A stretch of 64,000 nt of DNA, taken from positions 1,178,001 to 1,242,000 of the forward strand of contig WHVD01000002.1 of assembly GCA_015178975.1 (NCBI GenBank), written 5' to 3'. The first letter of the stretch is position 1. Every line of letters begins with the position of its first letter. Source of the stretch: Hysterangium stoloniferum (Eukaryota; Basidiomycota; Agaricomycetes; Hysterangiales; Hysterangiaceae). Positions 1 to 46,860 of this stretch are shown piece by piece. Under the pieces are notes generated by a model that was given only the letters and a program-made list of their open reading frames with translations, did not search any database and was not told where the DNA came from. The translations under genes and the position numbers were made by a program.

Positions 1-72
1 AGTATTGTAGTACAACTTGTCTATATAAACTAGACAAATTTGTATTTACACTCCAATCAGAAAATTAACTTA

Positions 73-1667
73 CAGTGAGGGACAAAACCCTTCCAATGAT
101 TTTAGTTGTGCAAAGATTCTTGAATAACTCAAGAACCACTGTAGATACAGACCTGAAATTTGGTGGTTGGTTAGGTCTATATGTTCTCTATATGCCATTA
201 AAATATTATGACATGACCACTGGTATTTTCCATGCTATAAATAAAATAATAATAAAATCACATTGGAAGGGTTTTGTCCATGGTATAAAAAGAACACAAA
301 TCAAACAATCTAGTACTTGGTATGGCCTCCCTTGGCCTTCAAAACAGCCTCAACTCTTCTAGGCATACTCTCTATCAAATTCTGACAAGTAGAGGCAGGG
401 ATCTTCTCCACTCTGTCTAAACCTCTCCCACAACTCATGAATACTCTTGGGTGCCACTTCATACTCTCCCAGCCTCTTTTTGAGGTAATACCAGAGGTGT
501 TCAATTGGATAAGGTCAGCAGACTGAGGTGGTCATACCATGACCACAAATCCATTATCTTTAAACCAATTGGTGGCCTTCTTGCTCTTGTGTTTGGGATC
601 ATTATCTTGCTGAAAGACCACATCTTCTGTGTTCTTCCATAATACTTCATGATTGCTTGAAGTTCATCTTCCATAATGCTAATATAAAGATCAGTATCCA
701 TCCTTCCATCAATTTTGGTGGAATATTCTGGTCCTTCCCACAACATACAGCTTCACAACATCAGATTTCCTCCTCCAAACCTGACTGTACCCTCAACCAC
801 CCTATCACTGAGCCCCTCTCCTGCCCTTTTCCATACCTACTTCCTCCCATATGACCACAAACAATTGATTTTTGTCTCATCTAACCAAACAAACCTCTTC
901 CAATCATCCACAGTCCAGTCCTTGTGTCCCAGAGCAAAGCCCATCCTTGCCTTCCTATGCCTCTTAGTGAGTAAAGGCCTTTTTCTCTTCACCACAGCTC
1001 TCATTCTAGCTTTCTTAGTGCTCTATGAAAAGTCTTCACTGAAATGGACTCTCCAGTCATATTTTGAAGGATTTTGGTGACCTCAGTGGCATGTTCTGCC
1101 TTCTGAGAAGTGATTTGTTAGAGGGAATAATGAATATCTGAGGGAGAAAGCTTGCATGGATAGCCACCAGGTGCTTTGGCAAGTGATGGGCAATGGGTAA
1201 AGTGAATTATGGATATAGTAAATTGACCTCTGCCAGTGATTGCAGAGATCTGAGAAGCAGACTTGCCCTTATTGAGCAAAATGAAAATGTGGCTAACCTG
1301 AGGAGGAGTAAGAGCTTTCATGGTGTAGAATGTTGAGTTGTGGGGATGTTGTTGAACTAGAAAGTGAACAGCTATATATATATCTAATTTTGACAGGTCA
1401 CATGATTTTTATTTGCACTTCTTTGCATATAATCAATAATGTTTTGTGCTGATCATGTGATTGGGACAAAACCCTTCCAATGTGATTTTATTATTATTTT
1501 ATTTATAGCATGGGAAATACTAATACTTATGTCATAATATTTTAAGAGAATATAGATAACATGTAGACCTAACCACCAAATTTCAGGTCTGTATCTACAG
1601 TGGTTCTTGAGTTATTCAAGAATCTTTGCACAACTAAAAGTCATTGGAAGGGTTTTGTCCCTCACTG
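73..1667 (-). mobile_element. Tc1/mariner-family DNA transposon with about 208-bp terminal inverted repeats
   Basis: A complete-looking Tc1-like element, 1595 bp long, flanked by TA at 71-72 and 1668-1669, the standard Tc1/mariner target duplication. The outer ends read CAGTGAGGGACAAAACCC on both strands. Left (73-281) and right (about 1458-1667) inverted repeats match over roughly 208 bp with a few differences. Each repeat starts with a CCCTTCCAATG-type motif and ends with the same motif inverted, an unusual repeat-within-repeat arrangement. The element sits inside the 5' LTR of the Gypsy fossil, so it is the younger of the two. Its transposase, on the minus strand, is decayed. Confidence 0.9.
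310..1321 (-). pseudogene. Tc1-like transposase, decayed
   Basis: This is the remnant transposase of the element at 73-1667. The N-terminus (1118-1321) begins MKALTPPQVSHIF and has a helix-turn-helix-like start. The catalytic part is seen at 501-746 (KIDGRMDTDLYISIMEDEL) and the C-terminus at 310-504, ending KAKGGHTKY, the same ending as the copy at 4164-4603. The pieces lie in different frames with stops between them, so no intact transposase can be read. The middle region, including part of the DDE catalytic core, has no open frame. Family assignment rests on the termini, the TA duplication and the shared C-terminal motif. Confidence 0.75.
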
Positions 1668-4117
1668 TAGTGTCCCTCAGTACACTCTATCAGTTAAGAC
1701 TTGTCACAGTGTATCTTTGGAGCCCATGGGCCCTGAAACTTGGACTCTTTGGGATTTCCTGTCTCAACTTCCTCTTATCTCCACCATCCTTCCCTCTTCC
1801 CAGACCTCCCAGACTTCCCTGGTCACGCTGTCTGAAATTGGACACAACAATCATGCAAGGTTGCAGCACATGACCTGAAGCCAAGTCCTACCTGTATACC
1901 AGACTATCCATGGGTTTCCCACCAGACCCTACTCATAAGACCTGAGCTTATCAGTATTTTCTGATTGCAGCTTGCAGATTGTTTTGGTCATGCCACCAAG
2001 AAGAAAGACACCTGAACAACTGGACCAACCCAGACCATCTACTCTCCAATCCCCACTTGTTCTGTACACCAGTCAGTCACACAGAATCCAGCCTACCACC
2101 ATGGACAAATCTTGTATTGAGGAAGTACCAGAGAATCTGGATGATTCAGAAAATGATGATGAGTCCATGGACCCTGACAAGGGCAAGACTGTTCCCAACC
2201 CCCTACTATCCAATGACCATGTGTCAAGGACCCCACTTCTGATGTTCTACCAGGTACTGTGACAAATTTATGTCCTATCTGCTCAAAGAAGGGAAGAAAA
2301 ATGATCAAGAACCCCCATGATCCAAAGTCAGCACTCCAGAAGCTTTTACTGGCTCCAACCCCAACAGACTGTCAACTTTCCTCATGCAGTGCCATTTTAA
2401 TTTCCACAATCAACCTGCTGCATTCTCCACAGACTCCCAGAAAGTCAATTATGCACTATCCTATCTCTTGGGATCCACATTGAAGTGGTTCAAACCAGCA
2501 TTTAGTGGACTTACCAAGGAAGATCCAAACTGGCTTGAAGATTGGAATGTGTTTGTTGAAGAATTGGAAACCAACTTTGGCCTGTACAACCTTACTGGAG
2601 AAGCTAAGAATAGCCTCACTAATCTTTGCATGAAGGACAATCAGCACATCACAGACTATATTGTGCAATTTAAACAATTTGGCCACATGTTGTCAATGGG
2701 GCAGTTCTGCACTCCACCATCAGTTTTATTCCAGTTTGCCATCCGCCTTAAAGATGAAGTCTCTAAAGGTGAAAGCAGCAAATCAAAAACATTGTCCTAT
2801 ATGTGCCTTAAGGTTCAGAATGCAGATGCACATTATTGGGAATGTCACATGGAAATCACCTGCAAGACACCTGCAAACAAAAACAATAAGTACATGGTGA
2901 ACAAAGGCAATAACAATCAGTCTGGCAATAACTTGAACCCCACACAATCCAACCAGATGAATGACAAAAAGTCTTCTGACAACAACAACAACTTTGGCAA
3001 TAGCAACAAAGGTCAACAATCTGGGAGGCAACAGTCAACCAGAAAACCTCACCTTACTGGCAAACTCAGGCCCCATGGCAAACTTACCCCATAAGAAAGG
3101 CAACATCACATTGACAATAACCTTTGTCTCTTGTGTGGGAAATCCAGCCATCAAATTCCAGAATGTCTGGTAGCTAAAGCTAATGCTACTAAAGCTCAAG
3201 TAGCTGCCACCTCCATGGGTTCCCTGCAGGAGAAGCTGGCCACCAAGTCAACAAAAAAGTAAGCAACTCTCTGGACTCTGTACAGACTGAGGGTGGGTTG
3301 TGTTACCTCTCCATACACTCCAGAGTTCACTCATCTTAATGCATCTGCTCTTTCAAATTCTGACTCATTATTTGTAAAACTTACTTCTGATATAATCATG
3401 GGCTCTGTGTTTTGTGTGCTTATAGACTCCAGCTCATCTCATTGTTTTATATGAAGCAACCAGACATTTTTCAACTCCTGAATCCCAGCCTATTGCAGAT
3501 CTAGAAGGCATCCTGGAGAAATATTATGACTTTGTGGATGTTTTTAGTAAGCAAAAGGCTGACCAGTGTCTGCCCCACAGATTGTATGACTTAAAAATTA
3601 ACCTTGAAGATGGGGCCCAGCCACCCCTTGGACTGATTTACCCATTGTCCTCCACAGAACCTTCTGCAATCTGGGAATTCCTGGATGAGCATCTGTCCAT
3701 AGGTTTTATTCAGCCATCTAAGTCTCCTTTTGGAGCACCCATTCTTTTTGTCAAAAAGAAGGATGGATCCCTGTAACTTTGCATCAATTTCAGAGGACTC
3801 AATCCAGTCACACAAAAAGATAAGTGTCCACTGCCACTTACATATTTCTGACCTACTCCACACTCTGTGGAATGCCTGGATTTATATCAAGATAGACCTC
3901 AAACATGCCTACCACTTGGTCTGGATTGCCAAGGGAGATGAGTGGAAAACCACCTTCTGTACTCATTATGGGGCTTTGGAATGGTTGGTGATGCCTTTCA
4001 GACTCACTAGTATCCCTTCCATTTTCCAACATTTTGTTAATGACATTTTTTCCAGCATGCTTGATGTATGCATTATCATTTATTTGAATGACATTCTTAT
4101 CTACTGCTTGAGTGACA

Positions 4118-4839: not shown

Positions 4840-6940
4840 TATTATCTGTTATAGGCACTATATTCTGAATATCAGTTGATTCTTACTCTTTGTCAACTGA
4901 GACATATTATCTGTTATAATGTCCTTCTGGGTGAAGCTCTTCATCCCCTATCATAATATTATCAAGAAAAAATTAAATAAGAGGCTTGGTGACAATGCTT
5001 TTAAAAGCTGTCTTGTGAACTTACCATACTTTTACATCTTTATCTTATCAAAATTTCAAAGAAAAATATTTTATATTTTTCCGGCCATTTCATTATTTTT
5101 TGATCATTATATATAGATGTGTGGATTAGTTCCGACACCAACGTGACATGGGTCCAATTTGTTGGAGTCCTGTTAGGGTATGTACACGGTGGGTTGAGAG
5201 TGGAAGTGGGCTGGCACTGGAAATACTTTTTCCCGTCACACTTCATCATCCCCAGAGTAGAATTTTGTTGAGGCAGGAACAGAATCTGGCATCACCAGCT
5301 GGTGTTGCGGTGTAACAAGCTTTGGGAATGTGGGTGTGGGTTGCTTCAATTTGTTGATTAAAGTGATGGAACAGTAGCAGACAATGCATTGCTTGGACTT
5401 TGTAGGCGATATTTTGGTGCAATATGCTTTTATGTTTCAAATAACACACACTCCAAACACAAGAAATGAAGAATTAACCTTTTAATGTTGGAGAGACCAG
5501 TGTCACTAAGGAGGATATCTGAAAACTATTAAGTATACCAAATTCTAATATACTCTAAAGGTCATTTAAACATCTGAGATGTGATTCAAACATAATTTGG
5601 TTTTTAAAACTTTCAAAAAGTTTTAAACTCTCTCATACATTACAAACTAAAGAATCTTTCCGGACACAAGTAGACAATAAAAAGAATTAGTAGTTTGAAA
5701 CACTAATACTTTTAAAAAATAGATACCTTTAGATAGTCCATTTCATGCATATGTATATTATTGGCACCTCTAAATACATATGTATTACTTCAGAATGGAT
5801 CTGTCAATCTGAACAGATTTCTACTTGATTCAACATACCCAGAATATATAGGGGATTTTACTTAATAAAGACAGCTGTGGTATGAAAAATTTCCAATAAT
5901 ATTTTACATATTTTACATGGAAATAACTACATTACAACTTTTAAAAAACAAAGTACTAATAAAAGTATTAGTAGGCATCTGTAAAAGGAAGGAAATTATA
6001 TACAATGGAATTTGTTAAATAACTATGGGTTGTATAAGATGTAATATGGAGAACTATTTCTGATGGTTGTTTTTTGATGATATAATTGTTTCAGAATATA
6101 TATCACTATTTAAAGATGGAGTTTTGTAAAAATAAGACTTTTATTAGTAAATATTTGAGATTATAGTAATTATAAACACCCTCCTAAAGGTACCATAGTA
6201 TTCAACGCCCAGATGCGAAGTCAACAGAATGAATGTTACTACCTTTATCCTATTCATAGGTATTATGAACGAATTGAAATCTGCAAATTTTAGCATGCTT
6301 GCAGTTTTTGCCAATAGTTGAAAAGAATTTTATTTTACAAGTATAGTGACCTTGATAGCAGAGCAATTAACAGCAGGGCAAAGTTGCAGCATAACAAAAC
6401 AAACAGAACAAAAAAAACCAGAAGGAAACAAACAAAAAAAAACAGACTACACAAAAAAAACAATAAAATCGATCGAAAAAATCAACAAGAAATTAAAGTC
6501 ATCATCACAAAGAAACCTTGGGGCTCGGTTGGTTCACCTCATTCCCTTCAAGAACGTTGCTGGATTTGGAAGTCTGTCTGTTAGTAGATTTTGTGTCATC
6601 TAAATGAGAGGTCAGATTAAAGTATGAAAACTTTTACTAAGAATGGAAACTCACCGAAATCACAGTCAGACTCGTAGGCAGGCTACACTCGTAAAAGATA
6701 CAGAGTGTGGTGAGAGGCCTTGTACGAGTCCAAACAACAAAACCGTTCCTTGGGGCCGCTTGAGATCCGATGAGATGAGTATGAGGGCATAATTTTACTG
6801 GAGTGAGAGTAACTCACAGTTACATCGATGCAGGGTCGCCGTTTGCCGGATTGACCCGTACTAGCTCATACACTCCAAGGTAGGACGCTAACGAATTGAT
6901 AAAAAATCCATTAAAATGTGAGAAGATAAGCATACGAGCG
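4840..6940. other. AT-rich stretch without recognisable genes
   Basis: No open frame of convincing length or family resemblance on either strand. It holds a 25-bp scrap of the Gypsy LTR start at 5171-5195 and A-rich runs near 6400-6480. Nothing else can be supported. Confidence 0.6.
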
Positions 6941-7378: not shown

Positions 7379-8367
7379 AAATGAATAAAAAGTAAAAACC
7401 TACACAATTTGCTGCGAAAACCTGAAGTCGGCACCAAGGGAAGACTATAAAAATCTAGGTCAGTAGTTAGTCTTTACGTCCTGCGTCAAAGGTGTGGGAG
7501 TAGAATGGGATCAGTACCTAAATTATGTAATACATGGGACGATAAGAACCCACCAGGTATCATTTTGAATGGTTCTTGCAGGTGCTCTATCCAGCCTCAA
7601 GTCCGCTCAGTAGGTCTCAACGCCAATGTCGCCTATTTACCGAAAGCAGATGCTGAAACCGTCCTACCTTGGCTACGGTACTGGAAAAAAAATGCGTTAG
7701 AAGAAATGAAAAGAAATATGAGAATCGTGCATACCCAACCAGTCGAGAATTCCCAGCAATCCCTCGCACGGATGCCCCATTGCACCCAAGCCGCTGAAAG
7801 ACGAAGAAAGAAAGAACACATTAATTAGAGTAGACTACACTATCTTAAGACAAAGAACGTACGTTTAGTCATCCAGCGTGCAGCACGTCCTCATAGCGAT
7901 GTCCCAAAGGCTTGCACAGCAAGCCCGTGGCCTAGGAGACTCCGAAAACACAATACTCACTAAACAGACACAGCTACAGGGCAACGAATAAGTAAACTGA
8001 GGCAGGAAGGTGAACAACAGCGCACCTTGTTCTCAAAGACAAGAGCCTGAACCAGTCGAGCCAATAACCCAAGGAAAGTAAATAGGAGGGCAGAAATAAT
8101 AGAAGAAAAAAGGGAAGAAAAATGAAAACAAACACAAAAACAAAAACAACAAACAACAAACAAAAACAAAAACTACCCACTACTGGGCTAGTTTGACCTC
8201 TGCTGGCATTAGCTCTGCACAAGCCTCCCCTACTTCTGCTTCTTCATTGGGTAAAATACGGCCCAGAAATACCCCTTATCTTCTGAGACACCGGCATCAC
8301 CAGGTCCACTCCCGTTACACCCGCCCTCCCACGCTGCAAAGCAGTGTGCAACCCTCAGCGGCCTGGT
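7379..8367. other. No recognisable gene
   Basis: A 107-residue open frame at 7505-7828 (+) begins MGSVPKLCNTWDDKNPP but has no family resemblance I can name and no splice-site support. A purine-rich A-tract stretch lies at 8090-8180. I see no other feature. Confidence 0.4.
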
Positions 8368-10637
8368 TCAACTGTAGAGTTCCATAACCCCCTGCTCCAG
8401 TTCATCTAAGTTGGCATCCCAGTAATCTTTTCCCCCCCATGGTTCAAGCTTTACACCCTCCACCTCTGGATTCACATCTTCTGGCCCGCATTTTTCCAAC
8501 TGCGTGGAATGCATAGTGGCTGCCCCCTCCTTGTAACTCAATCCCATTCGATGACCACATGAAGAGTCACTCATATCGTGGGATGTCTCTTCATAATTGA
8601 ATTCATCGTCATGGTCCTCGTTGATGTTTTAAGGGGTGACTGGGGAGGAATCTGCAAAAGTGGGGGTGGATGAAATCAATTTAGAGGTGGCGGTGGATGG
8701 AATCAGTTGAGTGATGGCAGTGGATAGAATCAGTCCAGGAGTGGCAGGGGATAGAATCAGTTCAGCAGTGGTGGAGAGGTAATGTTATTCTGACCTATTA
8801 TAGCCTCTGTAACAACCGGCAGACCGTCAATAAGACCACATGAAGAGGTGCGCATCTTGCGGGACATCTCTTCATAGTTGAATTCCCTGTCATCGTCATC
8901 ATCCGTGTTGATGTTTGCAGGGGCGACTGGTGTGGAATCTGCAGAAGTGGCAGTGGATGAAATCATTTCAGAGGTGGAGGTGGCTGGAGTCAGTTCAGCG
9001 ATGGCAGTGGATAGGGTTGGTCCAGGAGTGGCAGGGGATGGAATCAGTTCAGCAGTGGCGGCAGAGGTAATGTTAATCTCACCTATTACAGACTCTCTAT
9101 CAACCCGTGGACCATCAGTGGGACCACTTGGAGAGATGCCCATATTGCGGGACATCTCTTCATTGTTGAATTCCTCGCCATCTTCCTTGTTGATGTTTTC
9201 AGGAAGATCAGTGTTTGCAGGGACGACTGGCTGTGCTTCCCTGTGTGTGTTAGCACCGTTGACTGTCACTTGAATGGGCACCGGGCGAACAGCGATGGGA
9301 TTGCGGATGACGAGGACAGGGACAAGAAGGGGGCATGACATGATGTCTGCAAGAGAATATGAATGCTGCGCTGAGACAGTGTGGGTACACCACAAAATAG
9401 ATTTCAGTAATTGATGCCCAATGGTCGCTGCAATGATGAGCAACCAAAACAACATCATTCCCGTGGCTCATGCTGCAACACATAACGCTTGATAGCAAAT
9501 GTTCTGAATATGTCTGCGGAGAAACACTACAATGAGTGGTGTAACTACGACATATGCGAACGTTGCCGTGATCCTGAATGTGCAGCTTGTCAATGGTCGG
9601 GACATAAATGAGGGAATGTGGATCTACCTTGAAGTAACCATGGGGCAAGCCTCTGCCTCAAGAGAGTGTTCAACACTGGAGAACAAAGAGATGACCTGAT
9701 CCATAACGTCTGCGGGCATCAGAGTCTGAGCCAGCATGTATGGGATGGCAGGCAACATCTTCCAGAGAGAACCTCTGACAGGGGCGAGGATATGGACATG
9801 GTTAGATTAAGGGATGGGTTGCTACATAAACGGACTAGCTCACCTTTGACGATAGCAGGTACGTAGCATCAGTTGTGAGGAGACACTGACTGGCAACAAG
9901 TTGACAATGACGTTTGCGTCATACGGGTCAATCTTCCCTCCTATCATGACCTTGAAAAATGCCATGAATTTTGAGGAGGAAGACATATGCGCTACAGGTG
10001 CAGGAAGCAGCGATGGTCCAAAGAGCTCCTTCACCACAAAGCTGAGAAAGTTCAAGATGCTCCATTGATGGAGTGGAAACCAAGACGTAACGAGTAATAT
10101 GTGAAGACCATATCTGCACATCTTAATGTAGCAGGCGAGAGCATGTGTCACAAAGTGACGGAGATGGGCAGTCAGTTCAACAGCTTGAAGGTAAGGGGAA
10201 AGTTGCGGAATACTATACAAAGGACATTAAGGCCATGTGTGGAGGTGAGGAAGATGAACCTACAATGTGCCTTGGGCAACTATTTTCACGGCATATAGGA
10301 CTCCAAGAAGGAGAATACTGACATTGGCCAAATGTCCAATGTTGCGAGCCATAGCTTTGATGACCATGGCGTTGATTTCGGAGGTTGTAAACTTTCAGTA
10401 TATGGGGTTGAGAGCAAGGTTGAGTTGCAAGTGACTATGATCTCCGACAAATCAATAAATCGATCTTCCCGGGCGTCTAATGTGGCATTGGTCAATTGAG
10501 TCACTCACTGCATAATTTGCTGTCAAGGAGCCACGAATGGGAATTGTTATTAAGCCTGGCGGATGTCCGACGGAGTGTTGACGGGTGGGCAACCGACTAT
10601 ATGAGAATACCTGACAGGTTGTGTAGAAGATCGCCAT
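8368..10637 (-). pseudogene. Decayed multi-exon gene, hydrophobic N-terminal part and acidic repeat C-terminal part
   Basis: I do not recognise this family. Reading leftwards from about 10637, several short stretches look like exons of one protein: a start region (10286-10637, with REDRFIDLSEIIVT), a segment with IGHLANVSILLLGVLYA near 10300-10350, a hydrophobic segment at 9840-10220 (LLVTSWFPLHQWSILNFL), a segment at 9700-9790 (MLPAIPYMLAQTLMPADVMD), and a C-terminal part (8368-9260) rich in Ser, Thr, Pro and acidic residues, ending ELEQGVMELYS. The C-terminal part is three tandem copies of a unit of about 95 residues containing EFNYEEMSR. Unit 2 has a one-base loss relative to unit 1, and unit 3 has an in-frame TAA, so I call it a pseudogene. 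Exon borders are not secure, and an intact gene with unusual splicing is not excluded. Confidence 0.4.
8579..9175. repeat. Tandem triplication, period about 281-289 bp
   Basis: The landmark CTCTTCAT..TTGAATTC occurs near 8579, 8860 and 9149, giving spacings of 281 and 289 bp. The copies have diverged moderately. They lie within the decayed coding sequence, so the repeat is also a protein repeat of about 95 residues. Confidence 0.8.
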
Positions 10638-22468: not shown

Positions 22469-23137
22469 TGTTAGAATATGATAATGTGATTAATCATAAT
22501 CTCATATCTTGTCTTGTGACTGTATAGGTTCTGACCAGTTCACACATGTGATTGTTATATTTAGTTTAGTGTTCACTAGATCCATATCTTTGTCTCTGTC
22601 CATGTTTGGCTGAGTGGACCCCTGGTGGAAGCAAATCCAGGGGCCACAGGCTCCATTGCACAAAACATGCTGATGAGGATATGAGTGAGCTCCAGCAGCA
22701 TGCCAAACTAATAGTAAATACATGAGAAATCTATCTAAACTACAAGTTTTAGGGCAATAAAGGAGCAAGAAAGGGTGGGATGGTGGGAAAAAGAAAAAGA
22801 CTCAAGGAAAGGCTGAGCAATCCTTGAGGGCCAGCCACTCAGATGATGGTGGAAAGAGACAAAAGGCAGTGGGAGCTGACTGCATGATGGCAGAGCTTAA
22901 AAGGGGAAACACTCCCAATACAAAGAACATGGATTAATGAGATTAGTCCATTCCAGCATATTTGTGCACAGACCATGTATTCTAGTATATAGTTAGTTCA
23001 GATGAGGAGTAGATCCCTCATCTGAAAGCCTAGTTATATCACCAGTTTAGCATCTACCTGCTCTACTCTTAGTGGTTATGCCCCAACAGTAGAGAGTCCT
23101 TGTACTGTGATCACCAGGTTAGCAGATTCTTTTAACA
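22469..23137. mobile_element. Solo LTR (669 bp) with CTATC target duplication
   Basis: The sequence starts TGTTAG and ends TTTTAACA, flanked by CTATC at 22464-22468 and 23138-23142. The inner part (about 22575-22975) is an inverted relative of 45000-45410. The left flank runs directly into the unrecognised coding region ending at 22458. The family of the internal element is not shown by the LTR alone. Confidence 0.8.
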
Positions 23138-23142
23138 CTATC

Positions 23143-23390
23143 TGTTAGGGTACATACACAGCAGGGTTCTGGAGAAACCCACGGGATATCCAGTAGGACT
23201 TGAGCTTATAGGCTGCACCCTCACAAGATCATGTTGTCCAATTTCAGACAGGTGGACAGGAGTCCTGGGGAGTCTGGGCAGGGTTCGTGGGTCGAGGGGT
23301 TGTAGGTTGGAGGTCATGGGTCGAGAGGTCGGGAGTCGAGATAAATAAGAGAGATAGATGTGTTGGAGCCCATGGGCTCCGACTACGTTC
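23143..23390 (-). mobile_element. Gypsy-family LTR fragment
   Basis: Begins TGTTAGGGTACATACAC and matches the first 240 bp of the LTR at 24860-25683, including GGCTGCACCCTCAC and the GGAGCCCATGGGCTCC palindrome. Similarity fades near 23390. It abuts the preceding solo LTR's target duplication. Confidence 0.7.
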
Positions 23391-23545
23391 TTGTGAGCTT
23401 AATTCTACCAGTAGCCAGTAAAGTGTTTACCTTCAGTGTGAAAGGAACAAATGAAGCCTAGCCTTATGTGACACAGTGTCACAACAGTCACAGTCACAAC
23501 ATTATCACAAAATATTTAAGGTAACTTTTGATGCCTCTTTGACTC

Positions 23546-23657
23546 ATCTTTGACACATCAATTTATCTTTGACACATCAATTTATCTTTGACACATCAAT
23601 TTATCTTTGACACATCAATTTATCTTTGACACATCAATTTATCTTTGACACATCAAT
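23546..23657 (+). repeat. 19-bp minisatellite, about 6 units
   Basis: The unit ATCTTTGACACATCAATTT is repeated head to tail almost without change, then ends in CATCAATCAG. There is no coding sense and there are no spacers, so it is not a CRISPR array. Confidence 0.95.
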
Positions 23658-23938
23658 CAGAAAATCTCTCCATTGTATATTAGTTATATTATTAATCTAC
23701 CTCTCAATCTTATCTTATGTGATTGTCGAAACTCTTTGACATTTACATCTGTGAGCCTTTGCAACTGGAATTAGCCTCTTACTTCATCGACAGGGTGAAT
23801 CTATACTTTGTCAAACGAGGCCTCTGTATTCAGTTTAGTAGAATATATTACAATTATTATTTGACTTGATTGAAGGAAATTTGATTCATGTCACACAGGT
23901 GGGTGGATACTGGATGAGGCTTGACTTGTTTAGCCCAT

Positions 23939-24483
23939 TGTTAAGTGCCATGTCGGGAACTTATTCCGGAACTATTGGAAAGTCACCAGGAAGTCGGGAA
24001 CTATCGGATAGGGTCAGGATGTCGGCTTCAGCTTATATGCTGCGCCTCTACGCAAATGCTCAAAGTCCTTAATTTCAGAGGTGAGACTTACAATGGAAGA
24101 TACGGATATTCAGAGTTCTGAAGAGTTCCGAATATCGAGCGTACAGAAAGACGGGAGAAGGACTAAGAAACTAAGTCGATATCAGATCTGAGGTAAAGTA
24201 CAAATTCGCAGAAACTAATATAAGTCTACTCGTTATTGTACTACAAACTAAGACCATAATAAGACGGAAACGGAAATGTTCTTAAAACGGAAATACAATA
24301 AGACATATTAGGGAGACAATATTCTGAAATGGGAATACAACAAACAAACGAGTGAATACTTGTCAACAGACAAATTACCAAATGCGGAACAAGGGAAGAA
24401 CGCGGATGATATGGTAACTATGATGTTCCGTAGTCGGAGATCGGAAGTCGGATATTGAAAACATCCGGGAATGGGTCGTAACA
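23939..24483 (-). mobile_element. Solo LTR (545 bp) with CCCAT target duplication
   Basis: Begins TGTTAAGTGCC, ends GGGTCGTAACA, flanked by CCCAT at 23934-23938 and 24484-24488. The uninterrupted counterpart of the insertion point is at about 45747-45765. It shares the core GGCTTCAGCTTAT.TGCTGC with the other Gypsy-family LTRs, but is otherwise a different subfamily. Confidence 0.9.
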
Positions 24484-24587
24484 CCCATTTTGTTTGTATC
24501 TGACCAGTTTTATCTTGTCTGTGTGTTATAGAGTGTAACATAGCTAGCATTTCTTTTTGAAACTTCTCACCTTGAATACGACTTTCT

Positions 24588-26236
24588 TGTTAAGGGTGCA
24601 TACATGGAGAGTTTCTGGAGAAACCCACAGGAAATCTGGTAGAACTTGGCTTCAGCTTATAGGCTGTGCCCTCATGAGATTGTGTTGTCCAATTTCAAAC
24701 AGGCGGATGGAAATCCTGGGTAGTCCAGGTGGAGTTCGTGGGTTGAGGGGTTATGGGTCGAGAGGTTGGGGAGTCGAGATAGATAAGTCGGAGGTTGAGT
24801 GATAGATGTGTCGGAGCCTGTGGGCTCTGACTAGTGAGAGCAGTGTAATTCAAAGAGGATGTTAGGGTACATACATGGTGGGTTTCCTGAGAAACCCACA
24901 GAATATCTGGTAGGACTTGGCTTCAGCTTATAGGCTGCACCCTCACGAGATTGTGTTGTCCAGTTTCAGACAGGCAGATGGGAATCCTGGGGAGTCCAGG
25001 TGGGGTTCGTGGGTCGAGGGGTCGTGGGTTGGAGGTTGTAAGTCGAGAGGTTGTAAGTTGAGATAGGTAAGAGACATAGATGCACTGGAGCCCGTGGGCT
25101 CCGACTAGTGTGAGCAGTGTGATTCAAGTAGGAGTTTAAAGTGGAAAATGTATTAGATTACTGGTGGGAATCTAAGCCAATTTTCTGACTGGATTGTATG
25201 TACAACATCTGCCAGTTTAAATAGACCGTGGAGTGAATGACATACCAAATCCAGTAATGATGAAATGAAACTAGCAAAACATGAAACGGGAATAGTAAAC
25301 ACCAATTTGGTGTTAGGAATGGGATGGAATGGAGCAGAGTCTGAATTGTGATAAATCATAAACCATAATGGGAAACGGAGTGGGAGCGGAGTCCAAATTG
25401 TGACAGGTTATTTGACTAAAACAGGAACGGGGCTCTGTTAGAGGGATGATGGATTTGACAAGTGGGGTCCAGTGACTGACACGTGGGACGAGGATGGACA
25501 TAGACAGGGACAGGGTCCGGTGAGTATTTTGGTGACTGAAACACAATGTAACGAAGTCGAATGTAGACAAGTCTGACATATGGAGTCTGGTGGGAATTCT
25601 GGTGAACTGACAATGGGTGCATATAGGGTGCGGGTGCATATAAGTTAGTGCCTGGAGTCCGGTGGGAATTCCGGTTCGTAACAGAGGAGTTTAGAGCGGA
25701 AAATGTACTAGATTACTGGGGAGAATGTCAGCTAATTTTCTGACTGGATTGTATGTACAACATCTGCCAGACTATATAGACTGTGGAATGAATAACATAC
25801 CAAATCCAGTAATAATGAAAATGAAACTAGTAAACATAAAATGAGATAAGTAAACATTAAACTTGGTGTTAGGAATGGAATGGAATGGAGTGGAGTCTGA
25901 ACCATGACAGGTCATAAAACCATAAAGGGAATGGAGCAGCAGTGGAGTCTGAATCGTGACAGGTCATTGACTATAATGGGAATGGGGCTCAGTTAGAGAG
26001 ATGATGGGTTTTCCGAGTGGGGTCCAGTGACTGATGCATGGGATGAGGTTGGACATAGACAAGGACGGAGTCTAGCAGGTATTCCGGTGACTGATACATG
26101 AAGTAACAAAGTTGAATGTGGACAAGTCTGACGTATGGAGTCCAGCAGGAATTCCAGTAAACTGACAATTGGTGTGTATAGGGCATGGGTGCGTATAAGT
26201 TAGTGCCTGAGTCTGGTGGGAATTCTGGTTGTAACA
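24588..26236 (-). mobile_element. Solo Gypsy-family LTR 'A', interrupted by LTR 'B'
   Basis: Starts TGTTAAGGGTGCATACATGG and ends GGTTGTAACA. Without the inserted LTR B and its duplicated GAGGA, it is about 820 bp. The flanks are TTTCT (24583-24587) and CTTCT (26237-26241), a 5-bp duplication with one difference; the empty site ACCTTCTAGCC survives near 45868. By comparison with the Gypsy fossil at 1-4117, where this LTR lies upstream of Gag in the other orientation, the sense strand here is minus. Confidence 0.85.
24860..25683 (-). mobile_element. Solo Gypsy-family LTR 'B' nested in LTR 'A'
   Basis: An 824-bp LTR running from TGTTAGGGTACATACATGG to GGTTCGTAACA, with GAGGA duplicated at 24855-24859 and 25684-25688. 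It interrupts LTR A at the matching GAGGAGTTTA point, so it is the later insertion. It is the cleanest full-length LTR of this family in the window. Confidence 0.9.
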
Positions 26237-26249
26237 CTTCTAGCCAATG

Positions 26250-27794
26250 TGTTACAACCAGAATTCCTACTGGACTCCAGGCACTAACGTATATGCACCT
26301 GGACCCTATATGCACCAATTGTCAGTTTACCATATTTCCCACCAGACTCTGTACATCATACCTGTCCACGTTCGACTCCGTTACTTCATGTATCAGTCAC
26401 CAGAATACCTGCTGGACTCCATCCCTGTCTATCTCCGACCTTGTCCCACACATCAGTCACCGGACCCCACTCAGAAAACCCATCAGCCCTCTAACTGAGC
26501 CCCATTCCTGTTATAGTCAAATGACCTATCACAATTCGGACTCCGCTCCTGCCCCATTCCCATTATGGCTTTATGACCTGTCACGATTCAGACTCCACTC
26601 CATTCCATCCCATTCTGTTAAGAACTGAAAACTGACTAATGTTGGGTAGGCCGATGGGGACCGATCAGAAGGACTTGGCTTCAGCTTATGTGCTGCACCC
26701 TCACAACTATCTGTCAGGTGTCCTTAAATTTCAGGCAGGCGAAGACTAGTCCTAACGATTTCCCACTGGTGAGTTACTGATTGGGACCAAAGGATAAGTC
26801 CAGTGTCAGGCCAAGGGGTCGGAAACTGAGAGTGGGCGAGCACACCGGAAGGTGGATAGCGGAGTACTTAGTATGAGACTTCCAGAGGTGTAAGAGGGTA
26901 TTCTGAGTCGATATTCTGATTGCCTTGTAACTAGAACTACAGCGGGTTCATATACAAATATTCGGCATCTAGAAAATACTAACTAGGAGAAGAGTGGAAA
27001 ATGGTATTGACAAATAAGCTTGACGAGGAACGGGAAGGTTACAATTAGTTCAGAGGCCGTGAGATAACCGAGAGTGGAATTATGAGAAAAGGAAGTAGTC
27101 TGAGGGTTACAAGTATATATAGACATATGTGAAACATAAAGTAGAATGGATCATCATAATAAAAAAGGGACGTATCAGAGTTTAACCAGATAGTATGAGT
27201 ATATTTTGACAGGGGCGTAAATGGAGTTTGATCACCACGAAGGCATACGTCAGCATTGGGAAACCAATGGTTTCCGATGTGAGGACTTCAATGATGACTT
27301 GAATTGTCAATGTGTGGCAATAACCTCGGGGACTGTCAGGTTGTGACATGGTCATAACACATTCCTAACACCAAGTTTGGTGTTTATTTATCTTGTTTTA
27401 TGTTTGTTAGTTTAGTTTTCATTATTACTGGATTTGGTATATTATTCATTCCACAGTCTATATAGTCTGGCAGATGTTGTACATACAATCCAGTCAGAAA
27501 ATCAGCTTAGATTCTCCCCAGTAATCTTAGTATATTTTCCACTCTAAATTCCTCTTTGAAACACACCACTCTTACTCATAGGAGCCCATGGGCTCTGACC
27601 CATCCATCACTCAACCTCCAATTTATCTATCTCAACTCCCCAACCCCTCAACCCATGAACCCCGCCTGGACTCCCTGGGATTCCCATCCACCTATTTGAA
27701 ATTGGACAAGATGATCTCACAAGGGTGCAGCTTATAAGCTGAAGCCAAGTCCTACCGGGTTTCTCCAGAAACCCTCCATGTACGCACCTTAACA
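26250..27794 (+). mobile_element. Solo Gypsy-family LTR 'C', inverted, interrupted by LTR 'D'
   Basis: Starts TGTTACAACCAGAATTCC and ends CACCTTAACA, in the opposite orientation to A and B. It is flanked by CAATG at 26245-26249 and 27795-27799. Removing D and its duplicated CATTC leaves about 796 bp. It entered the background repeat only 13 bp from LTR A, giving an A/C arrangement that looks like a long inverted repeat. Confidence 0.88.
26616..27359 (-). mobile_element. Solo LTR 'D' (744 bp) nested in LTR 'C'
   Basis: Starts TGTTAAGAACTGAAAAC and ends GGTCATAACA, with CATTC at 26611-26615 and 27360-27364. It shares the GGACTTGGCTTCAGCTTAT core but differs elsewhere, so it is a sister LTR subfamily. 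It is younger than C. Confidence 0.88.
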
Positions 27795-28140
27795 CAATGT
27801 ACCAATTCCATATCCAACAGTAAAGCAATACGGGAAAACAAGTGTAATATAAACATGTGTATACTTACCTAGTAGCCATCCCATACAAAATGGCCAATAC
27901 AGGGGTATTGAGCCAAAGAATGGATATGAGGCTCTGGTTAGAAGGGAAACACAATAAGGCTGTCAACCTGAGGAACCAATATAAGGCTCTGGTTAGAAGG
28001 GAAACACCATTCAGGTGTTTCTGTTTCATCTGCCTATCCAGCAGCCATATACAGTCCATATACATAGGTAAACTGCTCCAGGAGAGAACCTCATTCAAAC
28101 ATCCCTTCAGTCATCGTGCATGTCCTGTTAGAGTTTTTAA

Positions 28141-29393
28141 GTTCAGAATACACTTGACTCGTTTTGGGTACTAAGAACATGTTGAAAACATATGAAGTGT
28201 AGAGTACAAGTACCTAGTTTAAGTACCTACTACTGGTAATACCATACCCGGTTACCCATCAATCATATGCTACATTGTTTGCAAACCCAAAAAATCTAAT
28301 ATGTCCATTCCTTCATCCCTCACAAGGTTGTTGGCATACTCCAGGTTATGGTGTGCAAGGTGAGAACAGTATCTTCTGACCTGCAGCTCCTGATCTGAAT
28401 CATTGCTTGTTCAGAAATTCTGTGAATGATATTAGGCCAGCTATCCCCATGCCATTTCATATTGAACCACTAGGCTGGATTGAGCAAATGCTGGTGGGGT
28501 AAACATCAGATGGTCAGCAGGTTTGACAAGCAACAGATTGAAGGCCTTACTTGAGATGCATCACATGTTCACTGACACTCCACTTCCATCATAATCTGCC
28601 ACATGGCAAGTAAATCTCCTGCCCACTGATGCTCGGACCTTTTAAAGCTCTCCAAGTGTCCAGCATCACCAAGCTTCCTGGGCAAAGATACATTCCATAT
28701 TCTGTGCCACACTCTTCACATCTTCCAATATGTCTGGACAATACCTGCCTGTCCTGAGATGGCAGCAAATTCAACGGCACACAACATGTTAACAACACCA
28801 CTGTGCCCTCCCAAGTGCAACCATCTCATCACACTATTAGTTTTGTGATTGAGAATTGACTCGAACACAAGTGAAACATGACCCAATAAAACCTTGTGAA
28901 TTGAATTCCAATTTTTTCTTGGACAGTCAGCTGGATTGGGCACTAGAAGGGTATTGTCAAACAGGGCACTGAATAGTATTAAGGTTCCCTCTGTGTATCT
29001 TGTGGAGGTGAAGTAATATCAATAATACCTCCTGACTGGTAACAAGGTTCTTTAATTAGCCCTTTCCATTGACAGCTGTCACTCACAAACTTCATGTCAT
29101 CAAACCTGTCACTTGCTTCAATGAATTGTGCACTTTGTACACAAGATATCCCATATTCACCCATGGAATCATTGTTCCAATTGAACACAATCTCTCGATT
29201 TTCAAAATTAGTAAGCCACTTTAAACAACACAGATTAGAAAACATATCACTAAATTTAACATCTTGCTGCTCATCCCTAAACAATCATCAGGTTCAAATG
29301 AATGTGTTGGTTGTCCTTGCCACATTATTTTCTCTGAGTCTCCATTATGCTCACCACTTTCTGTGTCTGTTTGAGTTTCATCACAGAGGATAC
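28141..29393 (-). pseudogene. Unrecognised protein-coding remnant among retroelements
   Basis: Minus-strand frames at 28979-29284 (begins MFRDEQQDVKFSDMF, with CVQSAQFIEASDRFDDMKFV and GGIIDITSPPQ) and 28716-28943 (begins MPNPADCPRKNWN, with VLLGHVSLVFESILNH and MRWLHLGGHSGVVN) appear to belong to one protein broken by stops and frameshifts. Further degraded coding sense continues to about 28300 (for example WLDTWRALKG-like and LLNPAWW-like stretches). I do not recognise the family. The acid-rich, tryptophan-rich style suggests a multi-copy basidiomycete protein, possibly carried by a transposon. The Copia LTR that starts at 29394 adjoins its upstream end. Confidence 0.35.
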
Positions 29394-29646
29394 TATTAAA
29401 AATAGTATGAGTTGACTCTATTGCAATACACAATATACAAGGGTTTAATAAGCTTGTAATAAAAGTACTTTGTGTCTCAATATCTTGTGTCAGTTAGTGT
29501 AGCACCTCCTGACAATATAGGTTGGATGCTCTGGGAGGTGTATAGTGGTTCTGACACACATTAACCTCCAAATGCATGGTCCACAATTAGCATCGTCATA
29601 TGAAGAGTTGCAATAATTGGTGGACTCCCCCTATAAAAAGGTGTGT
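29394..29646 (-). mobile_element. Copia-family LTR remnant (same family as the element at 52659-57474)
   Basis: Reads TATTAAAAATAGTATGAG.. to ..AAAAAGGTGTGTTT and matches the 271-bp Copia LTR in inverted orientation, nearly identical until about 29646. The outer end of the LTR is missing. The neighbouring solo LTR begins 16 bp further on. Confidence 0.9.
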
Positions 29647-29661
29647 TTTGTGTTTGGTAGC

Positions 29662-30719
29662 TGTTAAGTTCCCGAACAAAGCTCCACGGATAGTCCCATG
29701 GAGGTTTCCAGTAACTATTCCGAACACACACTTGCTTCCGGGAATTGTCCCACGGAGTCCCCGGGAAATAGGTCCCGGGAAGTTCCGGGGATTATTAGTA
29801 CAAGGAATGGTGATATCAGAATAATTACCAGAAAGTCTGGTGAACGACTGAGATGGACTTGGCTTCAGCTTATAGGCTGCACCCTCGTACACTCATCCGG
29901 GTGTCCATATTTCGAGCTGACAGAATGCAGACAGGAAGGTATAGATTCCGGAGTTCCCGTGGGAGTTCCGGGAATCGAGTGTGCAGACAGACAAGAGGAC
30001 TAGAGACTGTTCAAGGATCAAACTTGTTCGGGGGAAAACTAGTTCGAGATTGAAACTGGATTCTAAGTACATGAATATACTGTAGCAGACTTATATACAC
30101 TGTGAAATGTAATAATACCAAATCCGGTATTAATGAGAGGCAGAACTAATAAACATAAAACGAAACAAGTAAATACTAAACTGGGAATTAGGGACAGAAT
30201 GGAACGGGAGTGGAGAACGAATCATGACAGATCATTTAACCATAACTGGAGCGGGGCTCAGTTAGAGGGGTTCTGGAAGTCCAGTCAGAGTCCAGTGACT
30301 TGGTGCACAAGATAGTGTCGGGTATAGACAGGCTTGATGTGCAGGAGGTCTGGTGGAGTCTGGTGGGTTTTCTGATGACTGGTGTGTGAGATGCAGAGAC
30401 AGATAACAGGAGTGGGTTCTATGCTCTGTTAGAGGGGTTCCAGGAGTCCGGTCAGAGTCCGGTGACTTGGTGCACAAGACACAGAGTGTCGTGTGTACAT
30501 AGAGTGGAGTCCGGAGTCCGGAGGAGTCCGAGGACTGGTGTATGAGACACAGAGGGTTAGGTGCAGACAGGTGGGGTGCGTACAGAGAGTCAGGCATAAA
30601 CAAGTTGACATGTGGGCTCCCGTGGGAACTCCGGTTGTTACTATACAATATACAGGGTCGGGAGCATGTAGGACGGGGTCCGGGGGCCTGGAGGCTGGCG
30701 GGTTTTCTGGTTCCTGACA
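29662..30719 (-). mobile_element. Solo LTR (1058 bp) with GTAGC target duplication
   Basis: Starts TGTTAAGTTCCCG and ends GGTTCCTGACA, with GTAGC at 29657-29661 and 30720-30724. It has the family core CTTGGCTTCAGCTTATAGG and the same general layout as the 820-bp LTRs. Its extra length is partly a tandem duplication of about 165-170 bp: the block around GAGTCC.GTGACTTGGTGC occurs near 30290 and again near 30460. Confidence 0.88.
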
Positions 30720-30724
30720 GTAGC

Positions 30725-31540
30725 CTTGTTAGTGTTGCTGTGAAGGGTATGCACATATCATGATCAGGCTGTTAAATATTAGACATATTTTAGTACATTA
30801 TTATCTAGTATTGTTTCCTTTCTTTAATTCCTTATACTTTTCGAGCATACCTTTATTTCTTAGTTCGAAGCTTTGTGTATACCTGTGGGTGCACTCGGCG
30901 CCAGAAGACAAGACACTTTTTACCCAGCAGACACCACCTCGTAACAACCCAGACGTCAAATAGCAAGAGGTGTCAAGGGTAACATCTCAGCTACCTATAA
31001 AGGTAGTGTTTTCTCGCATACTAATAGTCTTTGGACTTGAACCACGAAGGTTGAGTCCCACTCTCAAGTCTTTGCACTCATCGACACTGTAGTCGACTTG
31101 CGCTGCTATCTCTCTACCCTATATATTCAGTCTTTCACTGATTATCTCTCTCACTTCTAGCTACAAGTTGTACCGTAAAGGTCAACTCTTCTATTCTCTT
31201 GTTCTATTCGTCACGAGCAACTGTACAGTTGCTCTTGTGATGTGTAGTGCATCTCTCTACTAGTACTATCAGTCTAGTAACCTACTGTATTGTACTGAAC
31301 AGTCAATACTTACTAATAGTAGTTGAATAAACACTATTCTTTGTATATCGAGCGGTCAGAATCTATTGACTCTTCACAGCTGCCCTAACATCCCCCAGCT
31401 TGGATAACTATGTATGTGGCCTGACCATGAGGAGCAGTTGTTGAGCTCTCCTCTGAAATCAGCATCCACATACATAACCTACAGGCTTATGTAAGATCTC
31501 TGAATTCTCCTTCATACATGATCTTGTAGTCTAGAGTTCC
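30725..31540. other. Unassigned sequence with an LTR-like 3' end
   Basis: No gene is seen. The part up to 31391 ends GCCCTAACA after a polyadenylation-like GAATAAACACTATTC. This looks like the right end of an LTR, but no matching left end or target duplication was found, so it is left unassigned. Confidence 0.35.
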
Positions 31541-40649: not shown

Positions 40650-41270
40650 CAGTCAAGCCTGACATCTATGATGGACTATTATGGGTTTCACGAGTGAACG
40701 CAAAAGAATTTAACCATGGTTTCGGTGAAATCCTGATAGTCGTCTGATACAGATGTCAGTTGATATGAAAGATGTCCGTTGGACTTTCTAGTCAGAGTCA
40801 ACTGGATATAATCGAAGTGAGAAAACTATACCATACCCATAATATCAATTTAACGATATGCAGTAGATTCATCAACGCTATGTAATTTAATATCAGTATC
40901 AAACGATAAATACTACCATAATTATGCAACCCTGCGCGTGTCGCATGTATTGACGAGGAAAAAGAGATATGTGTAGGAAGGAAGCTTCAACGGGATAAAA
41001 ATATTACCCCGCGCAGGAATCGAACCCACGACCTTAAGACTCTTACCCGGTCAGAGGGACTGTAAAAGTCTTACGCTCTACCAACTGAGCTAGCAAGGCA
41101 CGATTGAAAGGTTCAACATTGTAATAAATACTGAACCGTGACACCACCGTTGTTACATTCTACATTTGAGTCTGTTATTTTTTTCCCCATTCCAGACTTC
41201 TTGTCATACTACACCTTAATTTTGTTGTGCTAGTATATACAGTAACAAATAAATAAATTCATAAGACTAA
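40650..41270. repeat. tRNA-Lys-bearing dispersed repeat, copy 2 (fullest)
   Basis: About 350 bp upstream of the tRNA match 19300-19680, and about 170 bp on the other side match 46580-46760, including GAACCGTGACACCAC and TTTTTTTCCCCATTCCAGAC. This is the only copy here that has both flanks. The tRNA lies on the minus strand in the middle. Confidence 0.8.
41005..41099 (-). tRNA. tRNA-Lys, anticodon TTT, with intron
   Basis: A 95-nt gene with a 22-nt intron one base after the anticodon. The A box TAGCTCAGTTGG and B box GGTTCGATTCC are intact. The anticodon stem TAAGA/TCTTA surrounds a loop with TTT, where the two sister copies have CTT. The acceptor pairs GCCTTGC with GCGGGGT using several G-U pairs, and the T stem also has G-U pairs. 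It may be a functional variant or a decaying copy, because the change that makes TTT also weakens the pairing between the anticodon and the intron. Confidence 0.7.
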
Positions 41271-44665: not shown

Positions 44666-44760
44666 GTCCTGCTAGCTCAGTTGGTAGAGCGTAAGACTCT
44701 TACAGTCCTTCTGACCGGGTAAGAGTCTTAAGGTCGCGGGTTCGATTCCCGCGCAAGGCA
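44666..44760 (+). tRNA. tRNA-Lys, anticodon CTT, with intron
   Basis: A 95-nt gene with an intact A box (TAGCTCAGTTGG) and B box (GGTTCGATTCC). The T stem GCGGG/CCCGC is perfect. The anticodon loop is CTCTTA plus intron. The intron's GTAAGAGT is complementary to ACTCTTAC at the anticodon, as in normal nuclear introns. The acceptor GTCCTGC/GCAAGGC has one mismatch and one G-U pair. This is the best-formed body of the three copies. Confidence 0.85.
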
Positions 44761-45410: not shown

Positions 45411-45714
45411 TCAGTAGTAAGCTCAGAATATACACCTTGCCATTGGACCAAGGAAATTGACAGTTCAATATCAAATGGCTTTAAATGCGTGCCGTTGCCA
45501 TGCCAAGTTTTATGGAGGCTATGAGTCAAGTAATATGGTCCAGATGCAGAAATAATTTTGATGGACTGGTGTTTTGGCCATGGTCTGAAAGGGAACGCTG
45601 GTTGGACAATCACACATGTTATCTATCACGATGGTTGAGTAGGCCGATGTTTGGGAGCGGAAACCGGGCCTGATAACTTCTGCGGGGGAAAGGAACAAAC
45701 GGACGACTAGCGTT
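45411..45714. other. Unassigned sequence between repeats
   Basis: No gene or known repeat is recognised. Confidence 0.4.
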
Positions 45715-46280
45715 ACGCGACGCAGATGGTTGGATGCTGGATGAGGCATGACTTGTTTCCAATTTGTTTGCATCTGATTAGTTTTGCCTTGTCTGTATGT
45801 TATAGAGTGTAGCCTAACTAGCATTTCCTTCTAATATTTGAAACTTCTCTCCTTGAATACGACCTTCTAGCCTATGTACCGATTCCATATCCAACGGCAA
45901 AGCAACATGGGAAAGCAAATGTAATATCATCCCGTACGAGATCACCAGTATGGGGGTATCGAGCTCTCCGAGGTTTAGGTCTGTTAAACATGGGCCCCGT
46001 GTGGGTCGAGGAGCTTACGATTATAAGCATTAGGAAGTTGCTAATGAAGAGTGGTTAGGATTAGTAATAATTCAAGCTTCGACATGTGCCTCCATCTCCC
46101 CACAGTTTGTGTTGGCACAGGTCACTGTATCACAACCGTTGGCACCGAGCTGGATGGACTGTGAGGAACCGAAATGAGACTCTGTTTAGAAGGGAAACAC
46201 AATAAGGCTGACGACCTGAGGAACTTGTATGAGACTATGGTTAGAAGGGAAATATAATAAGGCTGTTCCAAGACCGATAG
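45715..46280 (+). repeat. Background repeat, uninterrupted copy 2 (carries empty sites)
   Basis: Continuous match to the four split pieces at 23890-28140. It holds the unoccupied sites for the LTR insertions seen there: near 45750 (CCCAT site) and near 45868 (CTTCT and CAATG sites). It is more CpG-rich than the split copy. Bases 45970-46110 are extra relative to copy 1. Confidence 0.8.
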
Positions 46281-46424: not shown

Positions 46425-46860
46425 CGCACTTGGAGAAAGAGATATATGTAGGAAGGAACCCGTGATTCAACGGGATAAAAATGTTACCCCGCGCAGGAAT
46501 CGAACCCACGACCTTAAAACTCTTACCCGGTCAGAGGGACTGTAAGAATCTTACGCTCTACCAACTGAGCTAGCAAGGCATGATGAAAGGGATCAACATC
46601 GTAATAAATACTGAACCGTGACACCACGGTTGTTACATTCTGCATTTGAGCGTGCTATTTTTTTCCCCATTCCAGACTTATTTGTCATACTACACCTTAC
46701 TTTTGTTGTACTAGTTATTTACAGTGACAAAAGGATAAAGTCATAAGGCTAGGTCAATATATATTGGTATGCGAACTTTGAACCTCGATATAGTTCTGCA
46801 TATGCATGTTTGGTACTTAATGGCTAATTCCATAATTCTTCGTCCGAACCTCGTCGCTCG
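46425..46860. repeat. tRNA-Lys-bearing dispersed repeat, copy 4
   Basis: Contains the motif GAGATATATGTAGGAAGGA and the hairpin CCCGTGATTCAACGGG ahead of the tRNA, and the same right flank as copy 2. Bases 46700-46860 are shared, inverted, with 44836-44990. Confidence 0.8.
46485..46579 (-). tRNA. tRNA-Lys, anticodon CTT, with intron (variant copy)
   Basis: Same 95-nt layout as the other two copies, with intact A and B boxes. The anticodon stem reads TAAGA/TTTTA with one G-U pair, and the acceptor has GCCTTGC/GCGGGGT with several G-U pairs. It may be functional or weakened. Confidence 0.7.

Follow-up and report, generated by a model that had tools for sequence, protein, structure and literature searches.

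Nested transposon insertions, the reading of their order from which element interrupts which, and the formation of solo long terminal repeats (LTRs) by recombination that keeps the target duplication are known from eukaryotes including plants and yeasts, as set out in the account of REANNOTATE (PMC2672092), whose references also lead to a related nesting tool, TEnest. A second kind of described system concerns the start of reverse transcription: the primer site of the retrotransposon Tf1 is complementary over 11 bases to the start of its own RNA (PMC7175516, PMC4600332). Self-priming has likewise been proposed for a basidiomycete element, Tcn1 of Cryptococcus neoformans (PMC7175516); for the related spikemoss element SM-Tcn1, no self-priming is reported to have been found (PMC2864245). 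Titles and abstract beginnings on self-priming in basidiomycetes or mushrooms, with subscription journals thinly covered, held nothing on the families treated here. These are the families of a 3.9-kb patch in a 64,000-nucleotide stretch of the basidiomycete Hysterangium stoloniferum (contig WHVD01000002.1, positions 1,178,001 to 1,242,000; the whole stretch is called the window below). The patch is a pile of five solo LTRs of Ty3-type elements that landed on and inside each other, and the layout of their relatives suggests that these elements most likely prime themselves as Tf1 does, without a tRNA (transfer RNA).

The five solo LTRs, which we call A to E (Table 1), represent three families, one comprising A, B and C, and the others D and E. 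Each consists of one LTR with TG...CA ends and lacks an interior, and on the plus strand all four of A to D start with TGTTA and end with TAACA (these ends were located by listing all occurrences of the two motifs in the region). The target duplications are exact for B, C, D and E and differ by one base for A; taking the ends as given, simple arithmetic puts the chance of four exact 5-bp duplications at about 1 in 10^12. A sequence-only reading of this DNA had named A to D, with B splitting A and D splitting the inverted C, and these four and their duplications hold to the base, the 5-bp repeats sitting at the LTR ends. Pairwise alignment showed A, B and C to be similar over their whole length (A-B 80%, A-C 86%, B-C 80%), with D alignable to them over only about 35 bp. 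A and C do lie exactly 13 bp apart in opposite orientation in the same background repeat, as that reading had it, and its preference for a stack of independent solo LTRs over a single inverted-repeat element is borne out by the target duplication that each LTR has of its own. Its total of four was too low: 104 bp upstream of A, the same background copy is broken by one more solo LTR, E.

Table 1. Coordinates in the window of the stacked LTRs, their duplications, the background repeat and the short motifs discussed in the text
Feature	Position	Strand	Remark
Background repeat, piece 1	23893..23938	plus	23893-23931 aligns to 45720-45758
E target duplication, left	23934..23938		CCCAT
Solo LTR E	23939..24483	minus	545 bp; TG..CA ends; CCCAT both sides
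Shared core in E	24024..24043	minus	
E 11-mer, complementary to E-family primer site	24179..24189	minus	TATA 33 nt upstream
E target duplication, right	24484..24488		CCCAT
Background repeat, piece 2	24484..24587	plus	24485-24587 aligns to 45759-45868
A target duplication, left	24583..24587		TTTCT
Solo LTR A, first part	24588..24859	minus	family sense from element L036
Shared core in A	24648..24667	minus	one difference
B target duplication, left	24855..24859		GAGGA; within A
Solo LTR B	24860..25683	minus	824 bp; inserted in A
Shared core in B	24919..24938	minus	
B 11-mer, complementary to A-family primer site	25180..25190	minus	no TATA at expected place
B target duplication, right	25684..25688		GAGGA
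Solo LTR A, second part	25689..26236	minus	
A 11-mer, complementary to A-family primer site	25735..25745	minus	TATA 33 nt upstream
A target duplication, right	26237..26241		CTTCT
Background repeat between A and C	26237..26249	plus	13 bp
C target duplication, left	26245..26249		CAATG
Solo LTR C, first part	26250..26615	plus	orientation opposite to A
D target duplication, left	26611..26615		CATTC; within C
Solo LTR D	26616..27359	minus	744 bp; other LTR family; inserted in C; sense from L063
Shared core in D	26677..26696	minus	
D 11-mer, complementary to D-family primer site	26911..26921	minus	TATA 33 nt upstream
D target duplication, right	27360..27364		CATTC
Solo LTR C, second part	27365..27794	plus	
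C 11-mer, complementary to A-family primer site	27492..27502	plus	TATA 33 nt upstream
Shared core in C	27727..27746	plus	
C target duplication, right	27795..27799		CAATG
Background repeat, last piece	27795..28010	plus	parts align to 45874-45927 and 46162-46266
Shared core copy near 29.86 kb	29861-29880		
Paralogous background repeat copy without E, A, C	45712..46280	plus	

When E, A and C were excised in silico, the remainder aligned through 45712-45940, across the A and C junctions, with differences consisting of substitutions, 3 bp at the E site and 7 bp between E and A. The copy near 45868, taken in the sequence-only reading for the undisturbed site, thus does run across both junctions without inserts, but it is a paralog and not the empty allele of this site. 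Ten more copies of the background repeat (L010-L019) span the site in the assembly (111 Mb in 554 contigs, the basis of all whole-genome counts below), and none of the ten has A or C there. The A/C target reads through with 2-6 differences per 29 in eight of them; the other two, L015 and L018, show 11 differences per 29, by eye owing to a one-base deletion that shifts the remainder. Since these two are identical at the site, as are L016 and L017, there are perhaps fewer than ten independent copies. Ten wider loci (L040-L049) searched with A, B, D and E gave no match. The first base of the A duplication is C at 45868 and in all ten other copies, so that the left copy, TTTCT, is the mutated one.

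Relatives that retain coding interiors tie the stacked LTRs to their parent elements. In locus L036, A-type LTRs (477-1277 and 8074-8885) flank 6.8 kb whose minus strand matches gag (Retrotrans_gag), retroviral protease (RVP_2), RVT_1 and the zinc-binding domain of integrase (Integrase_H2C2) above the cut-off and rve below it; the reverse transcriptase (RT; 5583-6914) precedes the integrase (4894-5388) in the sense direction, unlike in copia elements. An E-type LTR adjoins gag in L072, and a D-type LTR adjoins RVT_1 and RT_RNaseH in L063, where gag is missing; among solved structures the best match of the D-family RT is that of Ty3 (E = 2.1e-42). The three LTR families are accordingly of Ty3/Gypsy type, with no single family seen with a full domain set in these broken interiors, which were searched piecewise, and no chromodomain was found at an integrase end in the interior pieces searched. 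The sense of these relatives (L036 for A, L072, whose interior encodes gag, for E, and L063 for D) places A, B, D and E on the minus strand of the window and C on the plus strand.

The same interiors carry a conspicuous match to their own LTRs. In families A, D and E the interior begins GTAT... directly after the LTR, and from interior position 3 on, 2 nt beyond the LTR, 11 nt form an exact complement to an 11-mer in the same family's LTR, AGTCAGAAAAT in A, AATCAGAATAT in D and AGATCTGATAT in two of three E copies; seven of eight further D and E copies have their family's 11 letters at the interior start. Between families the longest complement of a primer site was 5-8 nt, as against 11 within a family. 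None of 770 (overlapping) control 25-mers from elsewhere in the interiors reached 11, and in sets of 2000 trials with shuffled LTRs this length was reached twice for A, once and never for two E copies and never for D. Because an 11-nt complement at +2, spelled with different letters in each family, matches Tf1's use of the first 11 bases of its RNA, the layout would work like the Tf1 mechanism. Leader folding also predicted pairing of the 11-mer with the primer site, with probabilities per base of 0.6-1.0 for D and 0.75-1.0 for two E copies. At the left end of the window (55-1966 and 2321-3094) we noted remains of a fourth, apparently self-primed lineage followed by a gag-like frame: a changed 11-mer, AATCAGAAAAT, stands at 55 and its complement at 1956, the change being matched on both sides. 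Near 1950 come an LTR-like end and the primer site, and the LTR seems interrupted by more than 1 kb.

On our reading, E, A and C, as Ty3/Gypsy-type elements, inserted separately through 5-bp staggered cuts into one copy of the background repeat, and B afterwards entered A, and D entered C. Recombination between an element's own two LTRs, a step that we infer, would then have removed the interior and one LTR and left a solo LTR between the duplications. While intact, the families most likely started reverse transcription in the manner of Tf1, the first 11 nt of the transcript pairing with the site 2 nt past the 5' LTR. To these propositions taken together (separate insertions, later nesting, LTR-LTR recombination and Tf1-like self-priming of the three families) we assign a probability of about 0.9. 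Several observations count against them. The left duplication of A is one base off its right one, and L036, the one relative with two LTRs that was examined, lacks matching duplications on its outer sides and so is not a clean insertion. The order of insertion finds no support in divergence (B 89% vs A 93%, D 89% vs C 92-93% identity to the nearest relative). On the priming side, B has no TATA at the expected place, the third E copy (L080) has only 9 complementary nt, one D copy (L091) has a changed letter in the primer site, and the A-family leader (from L036) is predicted to pair 11-mer and primer site at only about 0.2. Finally, although 18 of 20 E copies and all 8 D copies keep the 11-mer exactly, 144 of 534 (E) and 62 of 736 (D) windows, its own included, are equally conserved, so that no special conservation of the 11-mer was seen among these copies.

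The last two of these observations, an A-type leader that does not fold mainly into the pairing and an 11-mer without special conservation, would also suit priming by a tRNA or another route, the 11-nt complementarity being incidental, and a different, novel priming has been proposed for Tcn2-5 of Cryptococcus (PMC7175516). We nonetheless regard such a route as unlikely, given that the 11 nt recur at the same +2 offset with differing letters in three families and the fourth lineage, that none of the 770 controls matched this length, and that in four of the five stacked LTRs the 11-mer is preceded by a TATA, 33 nt upstream. The interior starts, GTAT..., moreover lack TGG, the usual start of a tRNA primer site; no search for a tRNA match was made.

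The recombination step would be superfluous if the LTR-sized units were short non-autonomous elements that inserted as lone LTRs, and many copies in the genome are indeed exactly LTR-sized with perfect duplications. The same LTRs, however, border coding interiors (two LTRs in L036, one each in L063 and L072), several copies show the primer-site or polypurine side of an interior in place of a duplication, and we know of no established route for insertion of a lone LTR; we consider this reading very improbable.

The arrangement seen from outside, with inverted arms that are 79-92% complementary, might also suggest one composite unit of some 3.2 kb, built of LTR-like pieces and bearing long inverted repeats, either a foldback element or a DNA transposon with terminal inverted repeats. 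Such an element requires a single duplication around the whole, with inverted ends. We found instead a separate 5-bp duplication for each LTR, and the outer flanks differ (TTTCT vs CAATG). Three of the ten junctions in the stack were searched as 24-mers against the whole assembly with up to 3 mismatches, and those of A with B and of background with C each occurred once (a reversed control for the latter gave one match), the C/D junction having two further matches, both at 3 mismatches; none of the ten recurs in the retrieved loci outside this site. We therefore reject a foldback or inverted-repeat transposon as next to impossible. Equally implausible is a local duplication or inversion of one LTR giving A and C, or A and B, which the shared family, the opposite orientation of A and C and their insertion points only 8 bp apart might suggest, since the target duplications are separate and each LTR is closer to copies elsewhere than to its neighbors: the second part of A is 84% identical to C (over the shared part) and 82% to B, yet 88-93% to its best 39 other copies, B is 82% identical to A and 86-89% to its best 39, and the second part of C is 88-93% identical to its best 39 others, with neither A nor B among those listed. 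For these comparisons the best 40 relatives of each LTR were scored among thousands of first-pass candidates.

With separate insertions and later nesting thus preferred, the order of events can be read in part. The sequence-only reading had called it readable; A did precede B and C preceded D, as one interrupts the other, but A against C, B against D and the place of E are not readable. Dating by divergence was tried as an independent confirmation and discarded, since solo LTRs offer no partner for comparison and the inner ones stand no nearer to their relatives than do the outer. Among the copies listed, the nearest relative is at 93% for the second and 90% for the first part of A, 89% for B, 92-93% for the second part of C, 89% for D and 96% for E (94-96% across the best 39 other full-length copies of E), and such an identity gives an upper bound only on the age of an LTR. 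Decay has been uneven, as seen from the bias of the 111 differences between A and C toward transitions (92, of which 22 at CpG); CpG is depleted (observed/expected 0.35-0.55), and this together with the transitions would suit decay through methylation.

The sequence-only reading held such a record to be uncommon, and neither this nor the idea of a special site finds support in the rest of the genome. Two surveys scored the flanks of top-scoring LTR copies, not of a random draw. The first comprised 37 full-length copies at retrieved loci, all outside the window (6 loci copying the window site, 7 repeat retrievals and 2 overlapping or mirrored loci were left out), in 25 of which the flanks match at 4-5 of 5 bases, 24 perfectly; several of the 12 unmatched copies have an element interior on one side. 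The second added 49 copies of D and E, with a boundary shift of up to 2 bases allowed, and found matching flanks in 33 (29 perfect), although one of these, L129, resembles an interior edge. Altogether 58 of 86 copies have matching 5-bp flanks, 53 of them perfect, where chance predicts 1.6% at fixed boundaries and somewhat more for the second survey with its permitted shift. Among the 58 flank-matched copies, seven (four and three in the two surveys) span another LTR of a small library, and seven of the 39 best relatives of B directly adjoin or interrupt another LTR of A/B type, counted within 50 bp. Solo LTRs are thus the majority form and nesting is frequent in the copies sampled, which makes the stack a normal product of this genome.

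At G000:C144:25114-27690 six A/B-type LTR pieces in both orientations form a pile comparable to that of the window. On two contigs (G000:C86:32476-34111 and G000:C208:64119-65752), a B-type LTR lies within an A/B-type LTR at an identical point (343-349), which may reflect the duplication of one event, two haplotypes or a target that was hit more than once. Near a contig end, L037 and L038 (G000:C334:1957500-1966500 and 1969000-1976920) carry one and the same LTR, flanks included, in opposite orientations, and either an assembly fold-back or an inverted duplication of large size could account for this.

Two forms of targeting were considered as causes of such nesting or siting, and rejected. 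For insertion at promoters, as in Tf1, 12 nest positions relative to the predicted transcription start were too broadly spread: -434, -76, -71, -6, +209 and +212 in the surveys, -128 and +58 in the window, and -210, -16, -16 and +115 among relatives of B (the last six placed by hand; the pair at -16 could stem from a single event that was duplicated). A further nested copy, L180, has a host LTR whose start was not placed. A slight excess close to the start emerged post hoc, and we claim no targeting. For insertion at tRNA genes, ARAGORN found tRNA-like genes in the background unit at 44.6-46.6 kb and none in the stack, nor any tRNA gene in 25 scanned loci that carry LTRs (among them two pairs that overlap or mirror each other). 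The tRNA-like genes of the window, at 44666-44760 (+), 46483-46580 (-) and 41004-41100 (-), were called 'Stop, tta' by ARAGORN; by eye we take them to be closer to an intron-bearing Lys-CUU. Two of them lie in inverted arms flanking the background repeat copy at 45.9 kb, and six of the ten other background-repeat loci have one or two such genes. An Rfam scan of 22900-31000 gave no match that attained a gathering score.

Families A/B/C, D and E align with one another over only 23-35 bp, where a 20-bp core, GCAGCNYATAAGCTGAAGCC, sits, exact in B, C, D and E, as well as in a stretch near 29.86 kb, and with one change in A. It has 6,413 exact matches in the assembly (3,226 + 3,187), and its reversed control has none. 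In retrieved sequence, 70 distinct core sites (up to 2 mismatches) divide into 25 E-type, 18 A/B/C-type, 14 D-type and 13 unclassified, shares that are biased because the loci were retrieved for carrying these LTRs; only three of the 13, which are putative LTRs, have a TAACA-like end within 110 nt. The distance from core to LTR end is mostly 59-61 nt in A/B/C and D (48 in C of the window, 54 and 76 in two others) and 84-85 nt in E, apart from one E site without an end in range. A small hairpin, CAGC...GCUG, was recognized by eye in the predicted folds of three of four leaders. We tentatively suggest that the core might act in cis as an RNA signal common to the families, serving either packaging or the assembly of the priming structure, and might thereby allow self-primed families to share a single machinery or to compete for it; this is a doubtful proposition, which if true would help to explain the thousands of such LTRs stacked in the genome.

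Further repeats surround the stack. A truncated A/B-type LTR piece (23143-23385) and a divergent stretch that resembles an LTR and contains internal repeats (29663-30800) lie beside it, and a 19-bp unit, ATCTTTGACACATCAATTT, is repeated in tandem at 23546-23657. An uninterrupted Ty1/copia gag-pol frame of 1,373 amino acids occupies 53043-57164, and 29394-29500 has matches of 98-100% identity near 50.5, 52.9 and 57.4 kb.

In itself the stack matters little: nested solo LTRs are textbook material, and this is a clean example. The 11-mers, which differ between families and in each case agree with the family's own primer site, would provide natural covariation for self-priming outside fission yeast, and the core, common to the families and present thousands of times, is a defined element for testing. 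Compared with known systems, the nest is the same in principle as those treated by REANNOTATE, although in this one every visible member, five in all, is a solo LTR. Ty3 of Saccharomyces cerevisiae, which is tRNA-primed, supplies the best solved match for the D-family RT, and we claim no close kinship with it. Tcn1 resembles the present families in being proposed to prime itself, again a likeness in proposed priming and not a claim of kinship. The nearest parallels are the self-primed Ty3/Gypsy elements of Schizosaccharomyces, Tf1/Tf2 and Tj1, which have the same complementarity of the primer site to the transcript start, a start that is predicted here; our families differ from them in letters that change from family to family and in residing in a larger genome, and the likeness that we propose is one of layout rather than of descent.

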